Shown here in pieces: positions 3,682 through 36,773 of a DNA stretch of 64,000 nt (positions within the stretch are counted from its first letter, which is position 1; every line of letters begins with the position of its first letter). The position numbers and the translations under genes were made by a program. Source of the stretch: Arthrobacter hankyongi (lineage in GTDB: Bacteria > Actinomycetota > Actinomycetes > Actinomycetales > Micrococcaceae). The stretch covers positions 1-64,000 of the forward strand of contig NZ_JAKLTQ010000013.1 in the NCBI RefSeq assembly GCF_022012395.1, given 5' to 3'. Below the pieces are notes generated by a model. The model ran no database searches, was not told where the DNA came from, and saw only the letters and a list, made by a program, of their open reading frames with translations.

Positions 3682-3803
3682 CGCGCATACCCTACGGCAC
3701 GGCGCCGGTGCGCCCGCTTTTTGTGGCGCCGCGTGACTTGTTTTGAAATGTGACGCAAACTGTTTCCCACTCCGGTCCCGGCCCGGGCAGACTGGCTGCG
3801 TAA

Positions 3804-3892
3804 CCATCCAGAGCGGCTGAGAGACCTGGCTCCGTGACGCCGCAGCAACCGCCCCCTTGCGGGGAAGACGGTGCTAATGCCAGGGCCGATGG
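3804..3892 (+). promoter_or_regulatory. SAM-I (S-box) riboswitch of the importer-monooxygenase operon
   Basis: P1 is CCATC paired with GATGG. The core holds TGAGAGACCTGGC, GACGCCGCAGCAACC, a CG-rich P3 arm and GGTGCTAATGCCAGG, which is the classical S-box arrangement. It lies 98 nt before the substrate-binding protein start at 3991. Known S-box RNAs bind S-adenosylmethionine and turn genes off when SAM is plentiful. Confidence 0.95.
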
Positions 3893-3963
3893 AGTCTGCC
3901 CAAGCCCTCCCGTTGGTCCCTGCCGTGCCCTGCGCGGCCGGCCCGGCTGTGCCTGCGGCATTC

Positions 3964-11868: not shown

Positions 11869-11916
11869 CATCGGATTTCGTGTCCGCCCCGGTCAGGGTG
11901 TCCAATGAAGAGGTAA

Positions 11917-12006
11917 CCATCCCGAGCGGCTGAGAGACCTGGCTCTGTGACGCCGCAGCAACCCCCTCCTTCACCGGAGCAAGGGTGCTACTGCCAGGAC
12001 CGATGG
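11917..12006 (+). promoter_or_regulatory. SAM-I (S-box) riboswitch of the DmoA-like gene
   Basis: P1 CCATC/GATGG encloses TGAGAGACCTGGC, GACGCCGCAGCAACC and GGGTGCTACTGCCAGG. Downstream, 12032-12055 forms a ten-pair hairpin with a TTCG tetraloop, a probable expression-platform element. The ATG it controls is at 12101. Confidence 0.95.
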
Positions 12007-12100
12007 AGAAGCACGAACTTTTCGTTGGTCACCGCGGCACCTTCGGGTGCCGCGGAACCGGCGTGCAGGCTCTTCACGGTCGGATCAAGAGGAGTCTGAC

Positions 12101-25315: not shown

Positions 25316-25774
25316 TCAGTCGGCGGCCAGGGCCAGTTGGGAGGCGCGGATCAGCTCCCGCATGGAGCCGTTCAGCTCCCGCAGCGCATCGCGGTCCAGG
25401 CCCAGCCGCTGAAGCATGGTGCCCGGCACGGAGAGCGCCTGCTGGCGCAGCGCGGCGCCGTCGGCGGTCAGCCCGACGGCGAGTGACCGCTCGTTGCCGG
25501 CGACCCGGCTGCGCGTGACCAGGCCCGCGGCCTCCAGCCGCTTGAGCATGGGGGAGAGGGTGGCCGGTTCCTGCAGCAGCGCCTCGGAGAGGTCCTTGAC
25601 CGTGCGCGGGCTCTGCTCCCACAACGCGAGCATGACCAGGTACTGCGGATGGGTCAGGCCCAGCTCCTCGAGGACCGGCCGGTAGGCGGCCACCACGCTG
25701 CGTGAGGCCACCGACAGAGCGAAACACAGCTGGTGCTCCAGCAGGAGGTCTTCTTCGCCTGCAGGCTGGGTCAT
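25316..25774 (-). CDS. MarR-family regulator, OhrR type
   Basis: 152 residues, winged helix. EEDLLLEHQLCFALSVASR carries the single reactive Cys (residue 17) of OhrR organic-peroxide sensors, followed by YRPVLEELGLTHPQYLVMLALWE and the DNA-recognition region TVKDLSEALLQEPATLSPMLKRLEAAGLV. In the OhrR family, oxidation of this Cys by organic hydroperoxides releases DNA. The usual partner Ohr peroxidase is not adjacent. Instead the gene is divergent from a small unknown protein, with an operator-like palindrome between. A TTG 18 nt upstream is an alternative start. Confidence 0.82.
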   Translation of the reverse strand: MTQPAGEEDLLLEHQLCFALSVASRSVVAAYRPVLEELGLTHPQYLVMLALWEQSPRTVKDLSEALLQEPATLSPMLKRLEAAGLVTRSRVAGNERSLAVGLTADGAALRQQALSVPGTMLQRLGLDRDALRELNGSMRELIRASQLALAAD

Positions 25775-27819: not shown

Positions 27820-28115
27820 GCGTCCACGTTCTTTCAACATCTCCTGGCTTGGGCCATCCGGCATTGCTGGGGCTCCAGTCATGCCGTGCGGGCGCCGGTA
27901 GGGGCCGGACAAAGGTTTGCGGGGGCCACGGCATCCGGCGCGGCCGACAAGAAGAGTTTAGCCCGTGACCATGGCGCCTCCGAATCGGCGGCGCCGTTGT
28001 GACGGCGGGATGCCGGCCGCCGGGGCTGGGTGGAGGTGCCGGGTAGAAGAATGTGGTCAGCCTGCTTATGGTTAAGGAGTCTTGGGGGATCCATCTGCCA
28101 GACCGGGAGGGGCAC

Positions 28116-28415
28116 ATGACCAATCCAGCCGAGGAGCCAACGGTTTTGCCGGACGTGCAGGATGCGGACAGGTTTGAGCAGCAGTTGCCGGTGTCGCCGG
28201 ACGAGGACGGCATGCTGGACGCCGAGACGCCGGGCCCGCTTGAGGGATCCGAAGCGGACCGGATGGAGCAGCGGCTGCCGGAAACACCCCCGGCGGGCCG
28301 CGGGATACCGCCGTCCGGGCAGCCGGAGGAGGGATCCGAAGCGGACCGGATCGAACAGGCGACGGGAATTCCCGGCGCCGACGATGAGGACTACCCGTAC
28401 GGCTCGGCCGGCTGA
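28116..28415 (+). CDS. small acidic repeat protein of unknown function
   Basis: 99 residues, strongly acidic and probably disordered. A short motif is repeated three times: DADRFEQQLPVSP, EADRMEQRLPETP and EADRIEQATGIP, the last two each preceded by EGS. GGGAGGGG before the ATG is a strong ribosome binding site. It lies on the opposite strand between recR and lysC. Similar ADxxEQ-repeat proteins occur in actinobacteria but I know of no function. Confidence 0.68.
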   Translation: MTNPAEEPTVLPDVQDADRFEQQLPVSPDEDGMLDAETPGPLEGSEADRMEQRLPETPPAGRGIPPSGQPEEGSEADRIEQATGIPGADDEDYPYGSAG

Positions 28416-31769: not shown

Positions 31770-31846
31770 GATGAAAACACTATCCGTTGAGGCCTAGGGT
31801 CCGCACCCGGCACGCACAGACCGGGGAACGGACGGGGATGCACGTA

Positions 31847-31937
31847 AAAGACCCCTCATGCACCTGCCAGAGCCCGCTTACCCTTGCTACCTTCCGGTCC
31901 TGGGGGAGTTCACAGGATGACACCACATGAGGGGCCG
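31847..31937 (-). ncRNA. ffs: signal recognition particle RNA (small bacterial type)
   Basis: Minus strand. The helix 8 core AGGACCGGAAGGTAGCAAGGG with its GGAA loop and asymmetric bulge is diagnostic (shown in part: CCGGAAGGTAGCAAGGG). The ends pair as GGCCCCTCATG with CATGAGGGGTC. It lies just upstream of dnaX as in many actinobacteria; TTTTACG follows the 3' end. Ends are estimated to a few bases. Confidence 0.93.
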
Positions 31938-31946
31938 CCCACTAGC

Positions 31947-32174
31947 TTACCCGATGTTCCCGGCGGCTTCCGAATCCGGCCGATCGTTCCGGCCGATCGC
32001 CCTGATCTGCTCGAGGGTCAGTTCCGCGGCGGCGGCCAGGTCCTCGGCCTGGATGCCGGCCGCCAGCGCTTCGCGCACCGCATCACGCAGGTCCGCGTCA
32101 GCATTATCCAGCTGGAACTCCTGCCATTCCTTGTCTGCGGCAGCGCTGCGGACCCTGATAAGGCGTTCGTCCAC
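31947..32174 (-). CDS. small protein of unknown function upstream of ffs
   Basis: 75 residues, mostly helical, acidic, with no signal or membrane segment. The C-terminal half (GIQAEDLAAAAELTLEQIRAIGR) has the look of a helix-turn-helix of the kind that places a helix of small residues before a recognition helix. The GTG start at 32174 is preceded by GGAAGGGGA. I do not recognise the family; a small DNA-binding regulator is one possibility. Confidence 0.6.
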   Translation of the reverse strand: MDERLIRVRSAAADKEWQEFQLDNADADLRDAVREALAAGIQAEDLAAAAELTLEQIRAIGRNDRPDSEAAGNIG

Positions 32175-32244: not shown

Positions 32245-32262
32245 TAACAATAAGAATGCTTA
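32245..32262. promoter_or_regulatory. 18-mer with palindromic core in front of the SDR gene
   Basis: TAACAATAAGAATGCTTA matches 16 of 18 bases of the site at 36665-36682. Its core TAAGAATGCTTA is a near-palindrome. It lies 63 nt before the SDR start and 71 nt before the divergent small gene. Confidence 0.6.
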
Positions 32263-32324
32263 GCAAGGGCCGGGTGCCGGTCCGGGCCCTTGCAGAGCCC
32301 GGATGCGGCGCGCAGGATGCTGGC

Positions 32325-33122
32325 ATGGCCTTCACACCCAGGACCGCGATTGTCACCGGATCGGACTCCGGGATCGGCCGTGCTGCAGCCGTGGCCCTCG
32401 CCCGCGCCGGCCTGGATATCGGCATCACCTGGCACACGGATGCGGCCGGCGCGGAGCAGACCGCCGCCGAGGTCCGCTCGCACGGCCGGAGGGCGCAGGT
32501 GGCCCGGCTGGACCTCACCGACCTGCCCGGCTGCGCCGACGTGGTCGACGAGCTGGCCGACGCCCTAGGCGGGCTCGACGTGTTCGTCAACAACGCAGGC
32601 ACCGGCGAGCAGGTCAAGTTCCTGGACCTGGACTACCAGCGCTGGCGCACCACCCTGGCCACGGACCTCGACGGCGCGTTCGTGTGCCTCCAGCGGGCGG
32701 CCCGTCGGATGGTCGCCGCCGGCGTGGGCGGGCGGATCATCGCCGTCACCAGCGTCCACGAGCACCAGCCGCGGGTGGGCTCCGCCGCCTACGATGCGGC
32801 CAAGCACGGGCTCGGCGGGCTGATCAAGACGATGGCGCTGGAGCTGGGCCGGTACGGCATCACGGCCAATTCGGTGGCCCCCGGCGAGATCGCCACGCCG
32901 ATGACTGGGCAGACGGACCAGGATCCGCGCGGCACGCAGCGTCCCGGCGTGCCGCTGGGCCGGCCCGGCGACGCCCGCGAAGTGGCAGCGGTGATTGCCT
33001 TCCTGGCCTCGGCCGAGGCCGGCTATGTGACCGGAGCGTCCTGGACGGTGGACGGTGGCATGCTCCAGATGGGCCCGCAGGCCGGCTCGCATCTCAAAGA
33101 GCAGGATTGGCGCGACGTGTAG
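32325..33122 (+). CDS. short-chain dehydrogenase/reductase
   Basis: 265 residues, classical SDR. Cofactor motif TGSDSGIG near the N-terminus, NNAG (VFVNNAGTG), catalytic Ser in AVTSVHEH and the Tyr-Lys pair in YDAAKHG. DGGMLQMGPQAGSH near the C-terminus resembles general-stress glucose dehydrogenase-like SDRs. WHTD after the second strand, in place of an acidic residue, hints at NADP preference. Start ATG after AGGATGC. Its promoter shares a palindromic 18-mer with the envelope cluster, suggesting stress control. The substrate is unknown. Confidence 0.88.
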   Translation: MAFTPRTAIVTGSDSGIGRAAAVALARAGLDIGITWHTDAAGAEQTAAEVRSHGRRAQVARLDLTDLPGCADVVDELADALGGLDVFVNNAGTGEQVKFLDLDYQRWRTTLATDLDGAFVCLQRAARRMVAAGVGGRIIAVTSVHEHQPRVGSAAYDAAKHGLGGLIKTMALELGRYGITANSVAPGEIATPMTGQTDQDPRGTQRPGVPLGRPGDAREVAAVIAFLASAEAGYVTGASWTVDGGMLQMGPQAGSHLKEQDWRDV

Positions 33123-33124
33123 GG

Positions 33125-33515
33125 CTAGTCCTGCAGCTCCGCCTCCAGCTCTTCTTCCAGCGCAACGTACCGCTCCAGCAGCTCGCGCGCGTGCCCGCCC
33201 GCAGGGCCTTCGGCGTCGAGCCCCGCCGCATCGACCCGGCCTTTTCCGCGCCCGCCGGAAACGGCGGCAGCAGCGGAATGTCCGGGTCGGTGACGGCCTC
33301 GAGGACGAAGGGCCGGTCCGCGGCCAGCGCCCATTCCCAGGCCTCGCCCAGCTCTCCGGGTTCCTCCACGCTCATCCCGTCCAGACCCAGCAGCCGCCCG
33401 TAGTCCGCGTAGCTGAAGTCCGGCAGCGCCTGGCTGTCCGGGAACCTCGGCTCGGCTTCCATCTCGCGCTGTTCCCAGGTCACCTCGGCCAGTTCGCGGT
33501 TGTTGAGCGGAAGCA
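33125..33515 (-). pseudogene. 3' remnant of a thiamine-diphosphate enzyme gene (PoxB/YdaP-like)
   Basis: Read on the minus strand, LNNRELAEVTWEQREMEAEP, DFSYADYGRLLGLDG, ADRPFVLEAVTDPDIPLLPP and FPAGAEKAGSMRRG match the C-terminal end of pyruvate oxidase-like thiamine-diphosphate proteins. The reading then has to shift frame at the C-run at 33221-33224 to continue as LDAEGPAGGHARELLERY to the stop at 33125, so one base has been lost. Some 450 N-terminal residues are missing. The fragment begins just after the stem-loop that follows the DUF3618 gene. Confidence 0.8.
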
Positions 33516-33520
33516 GGAGG

Positions 33521-33554
33521 CCCGGGCAGCGTCGTCTCAGGCTTGCTGCCCGGG
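33521..33554. terminator. stem-loop after the envelope cluster
   Basis: CCCGGGCAGC pairs with GCTGCCCGGG (10 pairs, 14-nt loop), 30 nt past the DUF3618 stop on the minus strand. No clear T-run. Confidence 0.6.
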
Positions 33555-33584
33555 CCGAGGTGAGGTCCGCAGGCTGCTGCGGGA

Positions 33585-34181
33585 TCAGTAGGTTGAGTTA
33601 GGCGGCTGTTGCTGCTGGACGTTGGTCCGGGCCTCTTCGGCGCGCAACTTCACGTCTTCGGCCGCCATGCTGCCCTCGGCCTTGACCCGGTCCGTGGCGT
33701 CCTGGGCGCTTGCCTTGACTTCCTCGGCGGCCTGGCGTGCCGGCTCCTTCATGTCCTCGCCGATCTGCCGGGCGGACTCCTTGACCTCCTCGACCAGCGG
33801 CTGCGCCTTTGCCTTCAGGGCCGCGGCGGCCTGCTGTTCGGCCTCGGTGGGCGGCACCAGCGTGGAAACCAGCCAGCCAACGCCGAAGGCGATCAGTCCG
33901 GCGGCGATCGGGTTGCCGCTGGTCCGGCGGGCGATCCGGTGGGGAACCTCGCCGACGGTGTCGCCGACGTCGTGCGCGGTGGACTGGAGCGAATGCCCGG
34001 TCTCCTGCGCCGAGCCCATGACGCGCTCCTTGGCCTGCTCGAACTTGGTCTTCACCTTGTCCGTCTGCCGATGCATGATCCTGGACGGGGTGACCTTATC
34101 GGCTACGGCGTCCACGTCGCTGCCCAGCCGGCCGCGGGTCGCTTCGATGTCGGCGCGGATCTCTTCGGGTGTCTGGCTCAT
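33585..34181 (-). CDS. DUF3618 domain-containing protein
   Basis: 198 residues. TPEEIRADIEATRGRLGSDVDAVADKVTP is the DUF3618 N-terminal helix pair. One membrane helix follows (GNPIAAGLIAFGVGWLVSTL), then a long charged amphipathic helix rich in Ala, Glu and Lys and a Gln-rich tail, like LEA-type stress proteins. It overlaps the holin-like gene by ATGA. Probably an inner-membrane protein with a cytoplasmic coiled tail; no biochemical role is known. Confidence 0.88.
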   Translation of the reverse strand: MSQTPEEIRADIEATRGRLGSDVDAVADKVTPSRIMHRQTDKVKTKFEQAKERVMGSAQETGHSLQSTAHDVGDTVGEVPHRIARRTSGNPIAAGLIAFGVGWLVSTLVPPTEAEQQAAAALKAKAQPLVEEVKESARQIGEDMKEPARQAAEEVKASAQDATDRVKAEGSMAAEDVKLRAEEARTNVQQQQPPNSTY

Positions 34182-34621
34182 CGTGTTTCCTCACTTGGCT
34201 TCAGGGTTTCGGGAATCTCCTTGACCGTTTCCACGGTGCGCGGCATGCCGCGGACGGTCTTCATTTCCTTCTTGCCGGAGGCGTAAAGGATGGCGGCGAT
34301 GATGGCCCAGATGACCGCCACGATCACGGCCGACCATCCTCCGCCCAGGAGCAGGCCGAGGCCCCACCACAGGGCCACCGACAGGAACAGCAGGACAAAA
34401 TGCCCGGCCACCCCGGCGCCGGCGAGCAGGCCCACGCCCTTGCCGGCGCGGCTGGTGGACTCCTTGAGTTCGGCCTTGGCCAGCTCCACTTCCTGGCGCA
34501 TCAGCACGGAAATGTCGCTGCTGACCTGTGCCAGAAGGTCACCCAGCGAACTGGTCTCGGCCTTGGCCTCGGCCCGGGTGGGCGGCGTCTGCGGGAACTC
34601 GGAAGGGGAGGGCTGGGTCAC
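34178..34621 (-). CDS. phage-holin-superfamily (Phage_holin_3_6-type) membrane protein
   Basis: 147 residues. An amphipathic N-terminal helix SLGDLLAQVSSDISVLMRQE and VELAKAELKESTSRAGKG precede two membrane helices (GVGLLAGAGVAGHFVLLFLSVAL and GWSAVIVAVIWAIIAAILYA). This is the layout of the chromosomal holin-like family found across actinobacteria. It is not evidence of a prophage. Coupled by overlaps on both sides to its neighbours. Confidence 0.87.
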   Translation of the reverse strand: MTQPSPSEFPQTPPTRAEAKAETSSLGDLLAQVSSDISVLMRQEVELAKAELKESTSRAGKGVGLLAGAGVAGHFVLLFLSVALWWGLGLLLGGGWSAVIVAVIWAIIAAILYASGKKEMKTVRGMPRTVETVKEIPETLKPSEETR

Positions 34622-35469
34622 CAGCGTTCACCTCCTTCGCCCGGGGCCCGGGGCGGCAGGTCCGTGGCCGGCTCGGTGCCGGCCGGAGGGACCGGGGGCT
34701 GGGCCGCTCCGCTGTCCGCGGGGTAGGTGCCGGCGCCCGGCGTCGTCGCGTAGGTGTCCGCGCCCGCGGTGCGGTAGGTGTCGCCGCTTTCGGGGACGTG
34801 GGAGGGCGGCGGCGGGACCGTGCCGGTATTCGCCGGCCGCCGTCCCGGGGTTCCTCCAGCCTCGGCGGCCATGCCGCGGGTCAGCCGCCCGGCCAGCAGG
34901 CCCGCTCCGGCAGCAAGGGCCAGGAAGGCGCCGGGCCGGCGCCGGGCAAAGGATTTGATCTCGTCCAGCAGGTCACCCGGTTCCCGCTTCTCCAGCCAGG
35001 CGGCGATGCCGCTGAACCGCTCCGCCGCCTGGTTCACCAGGTTCAGGGCGGTGCCGGACTGCGGCTGGCCGTTGGCCATCGAGGTCAGCTCGTCGCTCAG
35101 GGAACGCAGCTTGGAGGCGGCCCGCTGCTGCTGGGTGCTGGCCTGGCCGCTGAGGTCGTCGCTGAGCTGGGACATGAGGTTCGTGGCCTGGTACTTGGCC
35201 TCCCGGGCCACGTTGCCGGCTTCTTCCTTGGCGGCCTCGGCCACGTGCTGGCCGGCGGCAACGCCTTCGCGGCCTACTTCCTTGGCCTCCTCCGTGGCCG
35301 TGCCTGCGGCGGGCGGAGTGGTTGAAGGCGTGGTCGCCACCGGTTCCGCCGGCCTGACCGGGGGAACCGTCGTCTCGCCCAAGACTGTCTCTCCGAAGGG
35401 AGCCTCCGGCATGCCGGTGCGGGGAGGCAGATCCTCGTCGTAGTTGCCGGTGTTCGGATTTATGCTCAT
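34618..35469 (-). CDS. Ala/Pro-rich protein with one membrane segment, envelope cluster
   Basis: 283 residues. Disordered Pro/Thr N-terminus, then a long helix with repeated A-K-E-x-A pattern (HVAEAAKEEAGNVAREAKYQATNLM), LEKREPGDLLDEIKSFARRRPGAFLALAAGAGLLAGRLTRG (a short membrane or membrane-edge helix following EIKSFARRRPG), and a Pro/Gly/Tyr-rich tail. No enzyme motif. Its position between the BrkB and holin-like genes suggests it works with them at the membrane. Confidence 0.78.
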   Translation of the reverse strand: MSINPNTGNYDEDLPPRTGMPEAPFGETVLGETTVPPVRPAEPVATTPSTTPPAAGTATEEAKEVGREGVAAGQHVAEAAKEEAGNVAREAKYQATNLMSQLSDDLSGQASTQQQRAASKLRSLSDELTSMANGQPQSGTALNLVNQAAERFSGIAAWLEKREPGDLLDEIKSFARRRPGAFLALAAGAGLLAGRLTRGMAAEAGGTPGRRPANTGTVPPPPSHVPESGDTYRTAGADTYATTPGAGTYPADSGAAQPPVPPAGTEPATDLPPRAPGEGGERW

Positions 35470-35515
35470 CTCAGCTCCTTATTTCTGGAATCCGTTGGGC
35501 CGTGTCGTGGCCAGG

Positions 35516-36616
35516 TCAGTGTGGGTTGGCGGGCTGCCGCCCCTCGACGTCGTCCTCCGTCCAGCGGGTGTTGCCGGACTGCACGCGCAGCAGGCGGCCG
35601 CGCGCGACGTCGTCCCGGGCCTGCTGCTGCTGTTTCTCGCTGCGGTGGGTGTCCCGGGGCGGCAGCTGCAGGGTCTCTTCGGCCCGGATGCCGGCCTGCA
35701 GTTCGCGGCCGCGCTCGGTTTCGGCGTCGAACTCGGCGCCGAAGAGCAGGGACAGGTTCGCCAGCCACAGCCACAGCAGCATCACAATGACGCCGCCGAT
35801 GGCCCCGTAGGTCCGGTTGTAGTGGCCGAAGTTGGCCACGTAGAAGCCGAAGCCCGCGGTGGCGACCGCCAGCACGAGCAGGGCGATGAAGGCGCCCATG
35901 CTGATCCAGCGGAACTTGGGCTGCTTCACATTCGGGGTGGCGTAGTACAGCAGGGCGATCGACACCACGGCGGCCAGGATCAGCACCGGCCACTTGACGA
36001 TATTCCAGGCGGTCACCGCCGCCTGGCCCATGCCGATCAGCCCGCCGATGGCCGCGGCGATCGGGCCGGAGACCACCAGCAGGACCAGCATCAGCGCCGC
36101 CAGCACCACCAGGATGACGGTCAGCAGTATCATCATCGGACGCAGCTTCCAGAACGGCCGGCCCTCGTCCACCTCGTAGATGCGGTTCATCGCGCGGCCG
36201 AAAGCCCCCACGTAGCCGGAAGCCGACCAGAGGGCGCCGACAATACCGACGACAAGAGCCAGGCTGGCCGTGCCGGGGGCGGAGAACTGCTGGATCGGCT
36301 GCTCCAGCGCCTTGGCCGCGTCACCCGGAGCGAGCTGGTTGACCAGAGCCAGCATGGCGGCGGTGCCCTCTTCGCTCTGCCCGAAGAGCCCCAGCAGGGA
36401 TACCAGGGCGAGCAGCCCGGGGAACAGGGACAGCACCATGTAGTAGGTCAGCGCGGCCGCCAGGTCCGTGCACTGGTCGGAGGAAAATTCCCGCCGGGCC
36501 TTCCGGAAGATGTACATCCAGGAAGGCTTCTTCAGGTCGGTTGGGGAAGCGGGCTTGTACGGGCTGTCCGGGGCCGGAGCCGTCCGGACTTTGTCGGTAC
36601 TTTTTTGGGTTGCCAT
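35516..36616 (-). CDS. YihY/BrkB family inner-membrane protein
   Basis: 366 residues with six membrane helices. CTDLAAALTYYMVLSLFPGLLALVSLLGL is the family's first-helix signature (shown here in part as AALTYYMVLSLFPGLLAL). GYVGAFGRAMNRIYEVDEGRPFWKLRP and YNRTYGAIGGVIVMLLWLWL follow. The charged C-terminus is cytoplasmic. The family was once linked to ribonuclease BN by error; its true function is unknown. First gene of a four-gene cluster; GAGGAG precedes the ATG, and a palindromic 18-mer lies about 50 nt upstream. Confidence 0.92.
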   Translation of the reverse strand: MATQKSTDKVRTAPAPDSPYKPASPTDLKKPSWMYIFRKARREFSSDQCTDLAAALTYYMVLSLFPGLLALVSLLGLFGQSEEGTAAMLALVNQLAPGDAAKALEQPIQQFSAPGTASLALVVGIVGALWSASGYVGAFGRAMNRIYEVDEGRPFWKLRPMMILLTVILVVLAALMLVLLVVSGPIAAAIGGLIGMGQAAVTAWNIVKWPVLILAAVVSIALLYYATPNVKQPKFRWISMGAFIALLVLAVATAGFGFYVANFGHYNRTYGAIGGVIVMLLWLWLANLSLLFGAEFDAETERGRELQAGIRAEETLQLPPRDTHRSEKQQQQARDDVARGRLLRVQSGNTRWTEDDVEGRQPANPH

Positions 36617-36664
36617 GCCTGTCTCCTCGGTGGGGGAGCCGCATCAGTAGATCCGGTTTCACGC

Positions 36665-36682
36665 TAACACTAAGCATGCTTA
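36665..36682. promoter_or_regulatory. 18-mer with perfect 12-bp palindrome upstream of the BrkB cluster
   Basis: TAACACTAAGCATGCTTA, with TAAGCATGCTTA a perfect palindrome. It matches 16 of 18 bases of the site at 32245-32262 before the SDR gene. It lies about 50 nt upstream of the BrkB start. Confidence 0.65.
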
Positions 36683-36773
36683 CCAACAACCGGGTCGGGC
36701 GGCAAGGTCGCCCGATTCGGCAGATCGGCAAAACTTCGGTATTCTGGTATCCGCTCGCGAAGAGTGAACAACT

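Follow-up and report, generated by a model that had tools for sequence, protein, structure and literature searches.

A 64-kb stretch of the genome of Arthrobacter hankyongi (contig NZ_JAKLTQ010000013.1, positions 1 to 64,000; hereafter the window) carries two similar 18-mers, sites 1 and 2, each in a gap between genes (Table 1). The whole genome comprises 5,186,447 bases (5.19 Mb). Site 1 separates two divergent genes, one encoding a protein of 75 amino acids (aa) and the other an SDR oxidoreductase. Site 2 heads a minus-strand run encoding, in order, BrkB, a 283-aa protein, Holin-X and DUF3618, and a tRNA-Ser lies on its opposite side. The subject here is the element that the two sites share and the regulon to which it may belong.

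The 18-mers were found where a preliminary description of the window had placed them. Both are on the plus strand, and they differ at 2 of 18 bases. Site 1 lies 62 nt from the ATG codon of SDR (32325) and site 2 lies 48 nt from that of BrkB (36616), where the description gave about 50 to 65 nt. Both 18-mers are on one strand, but the SDR gene is on the plus strand and BrkB on the minus strand, so a dyad fits better than a directed box. The sequence TAACANTAAGNATGCTTA, allowing up to 3 mismatches, has three matches in the window and none in any of 100 shuffles. The core TAAGNATNCTTA, sought in the whole genome, occurs only at the two places in the window, as against one place in the reversed control.

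Table 1. Coordinates of the features discussed (positions in the window, except for the last row)
Feature	Position	Strand	Remarks
Site 1	32245-32262	+	22-bp form 32246-32267; dyad centre 32256/32257; operator-like, matrix score 19.6
Site 2	36665-36682	+	22-bp form 36666-36687; dyad centre 36676/36677; operator-like, matrix score 29.4
Possible weak third site	28052-28073		matrix score 13.6; about 42 nt before a predicted acidic 99-aa gene (28116-28415, +)
75-aa protein	31947-32174	-	no Pfam or NCBIfam family; starts about 70 nt left of site 1, divergent
SDR oxidoreductase	32325-33122	+	NCBIfam PRK12743 type; possible second target of site 1
BrkB/YihY family membrane protein	35516-36616	-	PF03631, 223.5 bits; first gene after site 2
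283-aa protein behind BrkB	34618-35469	-	no family above cut-off
Holin-X type membrane protein	34178-34621	-	PF07332
DUF3618 protein	33585-34181	-	PF12277
Inverted repeat, 9 bp	32263-32271 and 32285-32293		GCAAGGGCC/GGCCCTTGC; between site 1 and SDR
129-aa frame	33094-33483	-	no Pfam family
Small signal recognition particle RNA gene	31844-31939	-	RF00169, 71.3 bits; between dnaX and the 75-aa gene
S-adenosylmethionine riboswitches	2251-2344; 3801-3895; 11914-12009	-; +; +	three within 10 kb
Other MarR gene	25316-25774	-	locus L380
Candidate MarR (C56 MarR)	G000:C56:186760-187179		in the window's genome; divergent from AhpC/TSA peroxiredoxin

A dyad recurring beside stress genes

Sites were collected as matches to the 18-mer with at most 3 mismatches or to the core with at most 1, giving, once identical 78-bp contexts had been merged, 197 unique sites from 164 loci. 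The collection is not random, with 41 sites taken from BrkB loci, 8 from the window's genome and 148 from other fetched loci. A symmetric 22-bp matrix was built from 163 of the 197 (34 were omitted). Its consensus is AATAGTAAGCATGCTTACTATT, centred on GCATGC, in the manner of a palindromic operator of 16-20 bp or longer. When the window is scanned with the matrix, sites 2 and 1 are the two best places. The possible third site is doubtful, as scores above 12 are expected by chance about 4.5 times per genome.

In the window's genome, at least 14 sites score above 19 (among 29 candidates found by a 12-mer), but the same loci reversed give none above 12. A 52-Mb order-3 Markov sequence holds no score above 19, and about 0.4 per genome above 17. 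None of the 14 strong sites lies inside a predicted gene, and all except C67:51350 have a gene start within 250 nt. They accompany the BrkB operon, the 75-aa gene/SDR pair, a second BrkB gene behind a 104-aa gene (C1), and genes for an Acetyltransf_CG protein, CsbD, two Transgly_assoc-like proteins, DJ-1, a phosphoglycerate-mutase-like protein, an FTCD-like protein, a TetR regulator and small unknowns, several of these names having been assigned by eye.

The motif extends to relatives. Exact copies of CTAAGCATGCTTA occur in 10 of the 39 relatives searched (9 of 10 genomes of the window's genus, plus genome G017 of a related genus), and the reversed control is matched once, in a single genome. 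Allowing up to 3 mismatches, the 18-bp palindrome TAGTAAGCATGCTTACTA matches 317 times in the related genus, in all 26 genomes (2 to 23 each), against 6 times in the control, and 35 times against 2 in all 10 genomes of the window's genus. The window's genome contributes two of these matches, site 1 not among them. Matches are also found, 1 or 2 in number, in two of 28 further genomes (G017 aside). Among 80 named BrkB loci, the core with at most 1 mismatch is present in 26 of the 32 from Arthrobacter, Pseudarthrobacter or Paenarthrobacter and in none of the other 48; the table of scored BrkB loci runs to at least 46 rows.

Only 3 of the 197 sites fall inside genes predicted by a simple gene caller, where 130.5 would be expected. 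A predicted gene start lies within 450 nt of 151 of the 197 and within 130 nt of 107, the median distance from dyad to downstream gene being 78 nt. The largest clusters of neighbours are the holin-operon head (16 sites), CsbD (15), Acetyltransf_CG (14), a protein with no Pfam family (13) and PRC-barrel (11), followed by Transgly_assoc-like proteins (9), SDR (8), BrkB (7), and Dps-like ferritin, MarR, catalase and topoisomerase IB (5 each); the Transgly_assoc and catalase fragments score just below their family cut-offs. Smaller clusters include DJ-1/PfpI, pyridoxamine-oxidase-like proteins, Mn-catalase, a CBM48 glycogen enzyme, a thiamine-pyrophosphate (TPP) enzyme, DUF892, a polyketide-cyclase-type protein and a protein kinase. 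Going by established knowledge of such families, we take these to be stress genes. The earlier idea of one regulon, read by a DNA-binding protein then left unnamed, gains support, the dyad recurring within the genome, its genus and the related genus, nearly always outside genes and beside stress or envelope genes.

Probable targets of the two sites

BrkB, the first gene after site 2, is its presumed target. Gene order differs in two named Arthrobacter loci (L012 and L019), where the dyad lies 58 nt before the 'MTENQW' gene that heads a holin/DUF3618/BrkB run. In both arrangements, therefore, the dyad is at the head of the gene run. The nearest named relative, A. mobilis (BrkB 79% identical over the best segment), keeps both sites in place in its locus L010, and the one before BrkB scores 26.6. 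Site 1 is conserved there and in genome G001 (L346, score 21.9).

SDR, named earlier as the target of site 1, is in doubt. The SDR gene of A. crystallopoietes, whose product is 78% identical, has no site (best score 4.5). A paralogue of the 75-aa gene in G001 (L351, 49% identity) has a weak site (8.4) 69 nt upstream, two strong sites standing at 71 and 68 nt; of further paralogue loci, two lack a site and two score weakly (8.8 and 10.3) in comparable positions. Since the SDR copy lacks a site and the 75-aa paralogue retains a weak one, the 75-aa gene appears, from these comparisons, at least as likely a target as SDR. Perhaps both are under control.

Two other features of this region differ from A. 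mobilis. The inverted repeat between site 1 and SDR was not seen by eye at the same place in that strain. Also, the 129-aa frame resembles by eye the end of a 596-aa TPP-type gene that occupies this position in L010, and may be a gene remnant. Plasmid records yielded nothing on the two sites.

The MarR subfamily as candidate binder

In the related genus, two types of MarR gene have dyads close upstream (L129, L276, L124). (Between a 77-aa gene and the MarR gene of the last, at L124:1501-1518, there is also a nearly perfect long palindrome, CACCTAATAGTAATCATGCTTACTATTAGGTG.) A search with the first of these two MarR types at E 1e-8 finds a homologue in all 10 genomes of the window's genus and exactly one in the window's genome, C56 MarR. 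This protein has the MarR winged-helix domain (MarR_2, PF12802, 35.0 bits against a cut-off of 27; MarR, PF01047, 31.5 bits against 24.6). Its best NCBIfam models (Saro_0803, BagL/FevM and OhrR) all fall far below their cut-offs, and its best solved structure is 3f3x (E 4.5e-8). The window contains another MarR gene, of a clade different from the candidate's, and its locus has no strong dyad.

C56 MarR, used as the query at E 1e-12, has a match in 36 of 149 genomes of the order. The 220 nt upstream of the gene were scored in 30 loci, 21 of them from the 27 genomes of other families with a match and nine from the window's own family. In the other families, eight in number, ATTACTCAGCATGCTGAGTAT-like dyads upstream of the MarR gene score at least 8.9 in 19 of 21 loci and at least 12 in 18, no other place in those loci scoring above 1.0; these dyads lie outside the matrix training set. 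An operator-like dyad thus stands just before the regulator's own gene in 19 of the 21 homologues from other families, as against one of the nine own-family loci (L320, 20.3). Matches to ACTMAGCATGCTKAGT adjoin the MarR gene in 10 of 12 other-family genomes and are the sole match of the genome in five; G030 has none within 2 mismatches, and the only match of G071 lies elsewhere. Within the window's genus, a paralogue 66% identical to C56 MarR (L256) has a site of 22.5 eight nt upstream, a site that is itself in the training set. In a tree, the homologues form one clade with 100/100 support; sites occur on both sides of it, and the window's branch is among those without.

Protein and operator also vary together. 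In the 24 rows compared, C stands five bases from the dyad centre in 24 of 30 half-sites where Ser follows QTM, and A in 15 of 18 where Gly does; L325, a near-copy, and L329 and L333, which have no site, were left out. C56 MarR has Gly, and the 14 sites of its genome carry A in 26 of 28 half-sites. The association has a Fisher p of 2.3e-5, to be read as support rather than proof because the rows are related and it largely tracks the family split and the G+C content, which differs between the groups. The MarR subfamily is nevertheless a good candidate for the DNA-binding protein of the preliminary description.

Proposed mechanism

We consider it probable that the two 18-mers are operators of a single regulon of stress and envelope genes under a MarR-type repressor. 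Sequence shows the motif itself, how widely it occurs, which genes adjoin it and its link to the MarR subfamily; binding, repression, derepression, the inducing signal and the identity of the MarR in the window's genome are what we infer. According to the model, a dimeric winged-helix repressor of the MarR subfamily, with the recognition helix xQTMGxxLxxLE, would bind the AATAGTAAGCATGCTTACTATT dyad, a short way before the stress and envelope genes, and so stop their transcription. A stress-linked ligand would free the repressor from the dyad, and BrkB with the genes behind it, the 75-aa protein and perhaps SDR would be switched on jointly, together with about a dozen other loci (CsbD, GlsB-like proteins, DJ-1, a GNAT and the second BrkB among them). 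In the window's genome, the repressor would be C56 MarR. Read from its GTG start, this protein has zero cysteines, so an OhrR-type thiol switch is unlikely. The likeliest signal is a small molecule.

Blocking RNA polymerase is the usual reading of MarR operators. Promoter statistics were taken over 111 site-gene pairs (11 of 122 having been removed as near-copies). The gene-side arm of the dyad reads TANNNT at +5 to +10 in 55 of the 111, a pattern partly forced by the symmetry of the palindrome, and G stands at +17, the position of a would-be start, in 52. An operator in the spacer, as in MerR-type promoters, was rejected: by eye, the position profile has the dyad covering the gene-side end of a plausible spacer, not its middle.

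Several observations weigh against a MarR-type regulon, besides the kinship of the Gly/Ser rows. The -35 signal is weak (TTG at -21 to -19 in 12 of 111 pairs, too few for a shared -35 box), and a search for sigma-70-like promoters came up empty at both sites in the window; hence promoter overlap and repression are things that we only infer. Allowing up to 2 mismatches, the 12-mer TAAGCATGCTTA by itself has 29 matches in the window's genome and 24 in the control. It was discarded as a genome-wide marker, and the case therefore depends on the longer dyad, where alone an excess is visible. Eight of the 197 collected sites originate in the window's genome, which was in part its own training set. 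The candidate itself has no dyad in the 220 nt upstream (best score -14.6), and self-regulation of C56 MarR through the dyad was accordingly dropped. The nine own-family loci, the window's included, have a site in L320 only, 7 of the 8 others besides the window's being without one, and the MarR loci of same-genus genomes, paralogues L250 and L256 excepted, give weak matches (up to 10.9). Finally, homologues of the subfamily are present in genomes without the motif (G014, G023).

Other readings

Perhaps the dyad is read by some other DNA-binding protein, such as a different MarR of the same genome. The lack of self-regulation of C56 MarR would fit, and the genome holds dozens of MarR-like matches (64 and 38 at E of at most 0.001, many of them from other helix-turn-helix families). 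But among the loci listed (at most 30 per search), the best matrix score is 13.0 (L372), at a dyad whose core differs, and at E limits of 1e-8 and 1e-12 C56 MarR is the sole match to the subfamily. No other self-regulated MarR with a strong site came to light among the loci listed, and we regard another binder as unlikely.

That a TetR-family regulator has the dyad as its operator is quite unlikely, although two TetR genes beside sites (C13:48945 and C1:609564) could be self-regulated masters. A site of 21.5 lies 42 nt before the TetR gene of L200 and one of 20.3 about 240 nt before the predicted start of that of L194; both proteins match TetR_C_1, and TetR proteins likewise bind palindromes. 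The L194 site, however, is closer to a divergent 75-aa gene (79 nt), and in eight other families it is MarR genes, not TetR genes, that carry the dyad, a contrast weaker than it looks since no search for TetR homologues was made there.

The preliminary description also allowed for the input of an alternative sigma factor. That the sites are parts of SigB/SigF-type promoters is very improbable, even though the neighbours resemble SigB regulons and an exact TAAGCATGCTTA core lies 62 nt before a SigB/F/G-like gene of A. crystallopoietes (L082:1864-2640, minus strand; best model below cut-off). The element has the symmetry of a dyad, and GGGTA, which with GGGTAT represents the SigB-type -10 consensus, is found downstream of 3 of 111 sites and upstream of 9 (GGGTAT, 1 and 3). 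As GGGTA is not enriched, a SigB promoter is disfavoured and the sigma suggestion goes unsupported. The core before the L082 sigma gene raises the separate possibility of a regulatory cascade. As to a chance likeness between the two 18-mers, for which the near-control count of the 12-mer might speak, it is already refuted by the shuffles, by the uniqueness of the core in 5.19 Mb, by A. mobilis keeping sites at both places and by the recurrence of the motif in two genera.

Significance and relation to known systems

Arthrobacter-type soil bacteria are known to survive drying, starvation and toxic compounds. A search of the open literature found no report of how their general stress genes are wired, nor of this motif or regulon, six papers that matched the motif letters being unrelated by title; subscription papers and regulon databases were outside the search. 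Neither CsbD nor holin is mentioned in the accessible part of the main text of an Arthrobacter drought transcriptome (PMC9608346), and another Arthrobacter genome paper offers on this point only counts of sigma factors. A 22-bp dyad with a named candidate repressor makes the stress wiring directly testable. It would also offer a clean case of a local repressor growing into a global regulon, because the matches per genome number 0 to 4 in distant relatives but 2 to 23 in those of Arthrobacter type (the pattern and mismatch limit differing between counts). A bolder proposal, held tentatively and with more doubt than belief, is that a MarR repressor confined in related families to little beyond its own locus became, in Arthrobacter and its sister genus, the main general-stress switch, taking over targets that belong to SigB-type regulons in other Gram-positives and, in some species, the SigB/F-like sigma gene as well.

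The regulon would be of a MarR kind already known, though its size and target set are unusual. CrtR of Corynebacterium glutamicum and relatives is a MarR-type regulator with negative self-regulation, its gene often beside mmpL, and it recognizes a motif of 15-19 bp with a central TTAA in a small regulon, as described in the accessible parts of the reports (PMC7432914, PMC5401885). The likeness lies in the actinobacterial MarR type and in the mmpL transporter that some MarR loci here also adjoin. The identity of the two was rejected, as far as the accessible text allows, by motif and not by protein sequence: the centre here is GCATGC, not TTAA, and the sites are many. MalR of C. glutamicum, also MarR-type, has 66 peaks and is linked to stress-related remodelling of the envelope, and its motif is very AT-rich, according to the part of the paper available (PMC6536590). 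It resembles the present system in type, in its many sites and in its link to stress and envelope, and differs in its motif as described there, the comparison being one of descriptions, not of protein sequences.

Better-known MarR repressors with palindromic operators (SlyA, OhrR, HucR) share with the candidate the winged-helix domain, the palindromic site and, in its relatives, a site at the regulator's own promoter. The candidate differs in having no close characterised relative and no OhrR-type cysteine. The SigB general stress regulon of Bacillus and actinobacteria comprises CsbD, DJ-1/PfpI, Dps, catalase, a general-stress SDR and pyridoxamine-oxidase-like proteins. The types of target overlap with those found here, where a dyad operator would take the place of the SigB promoter.

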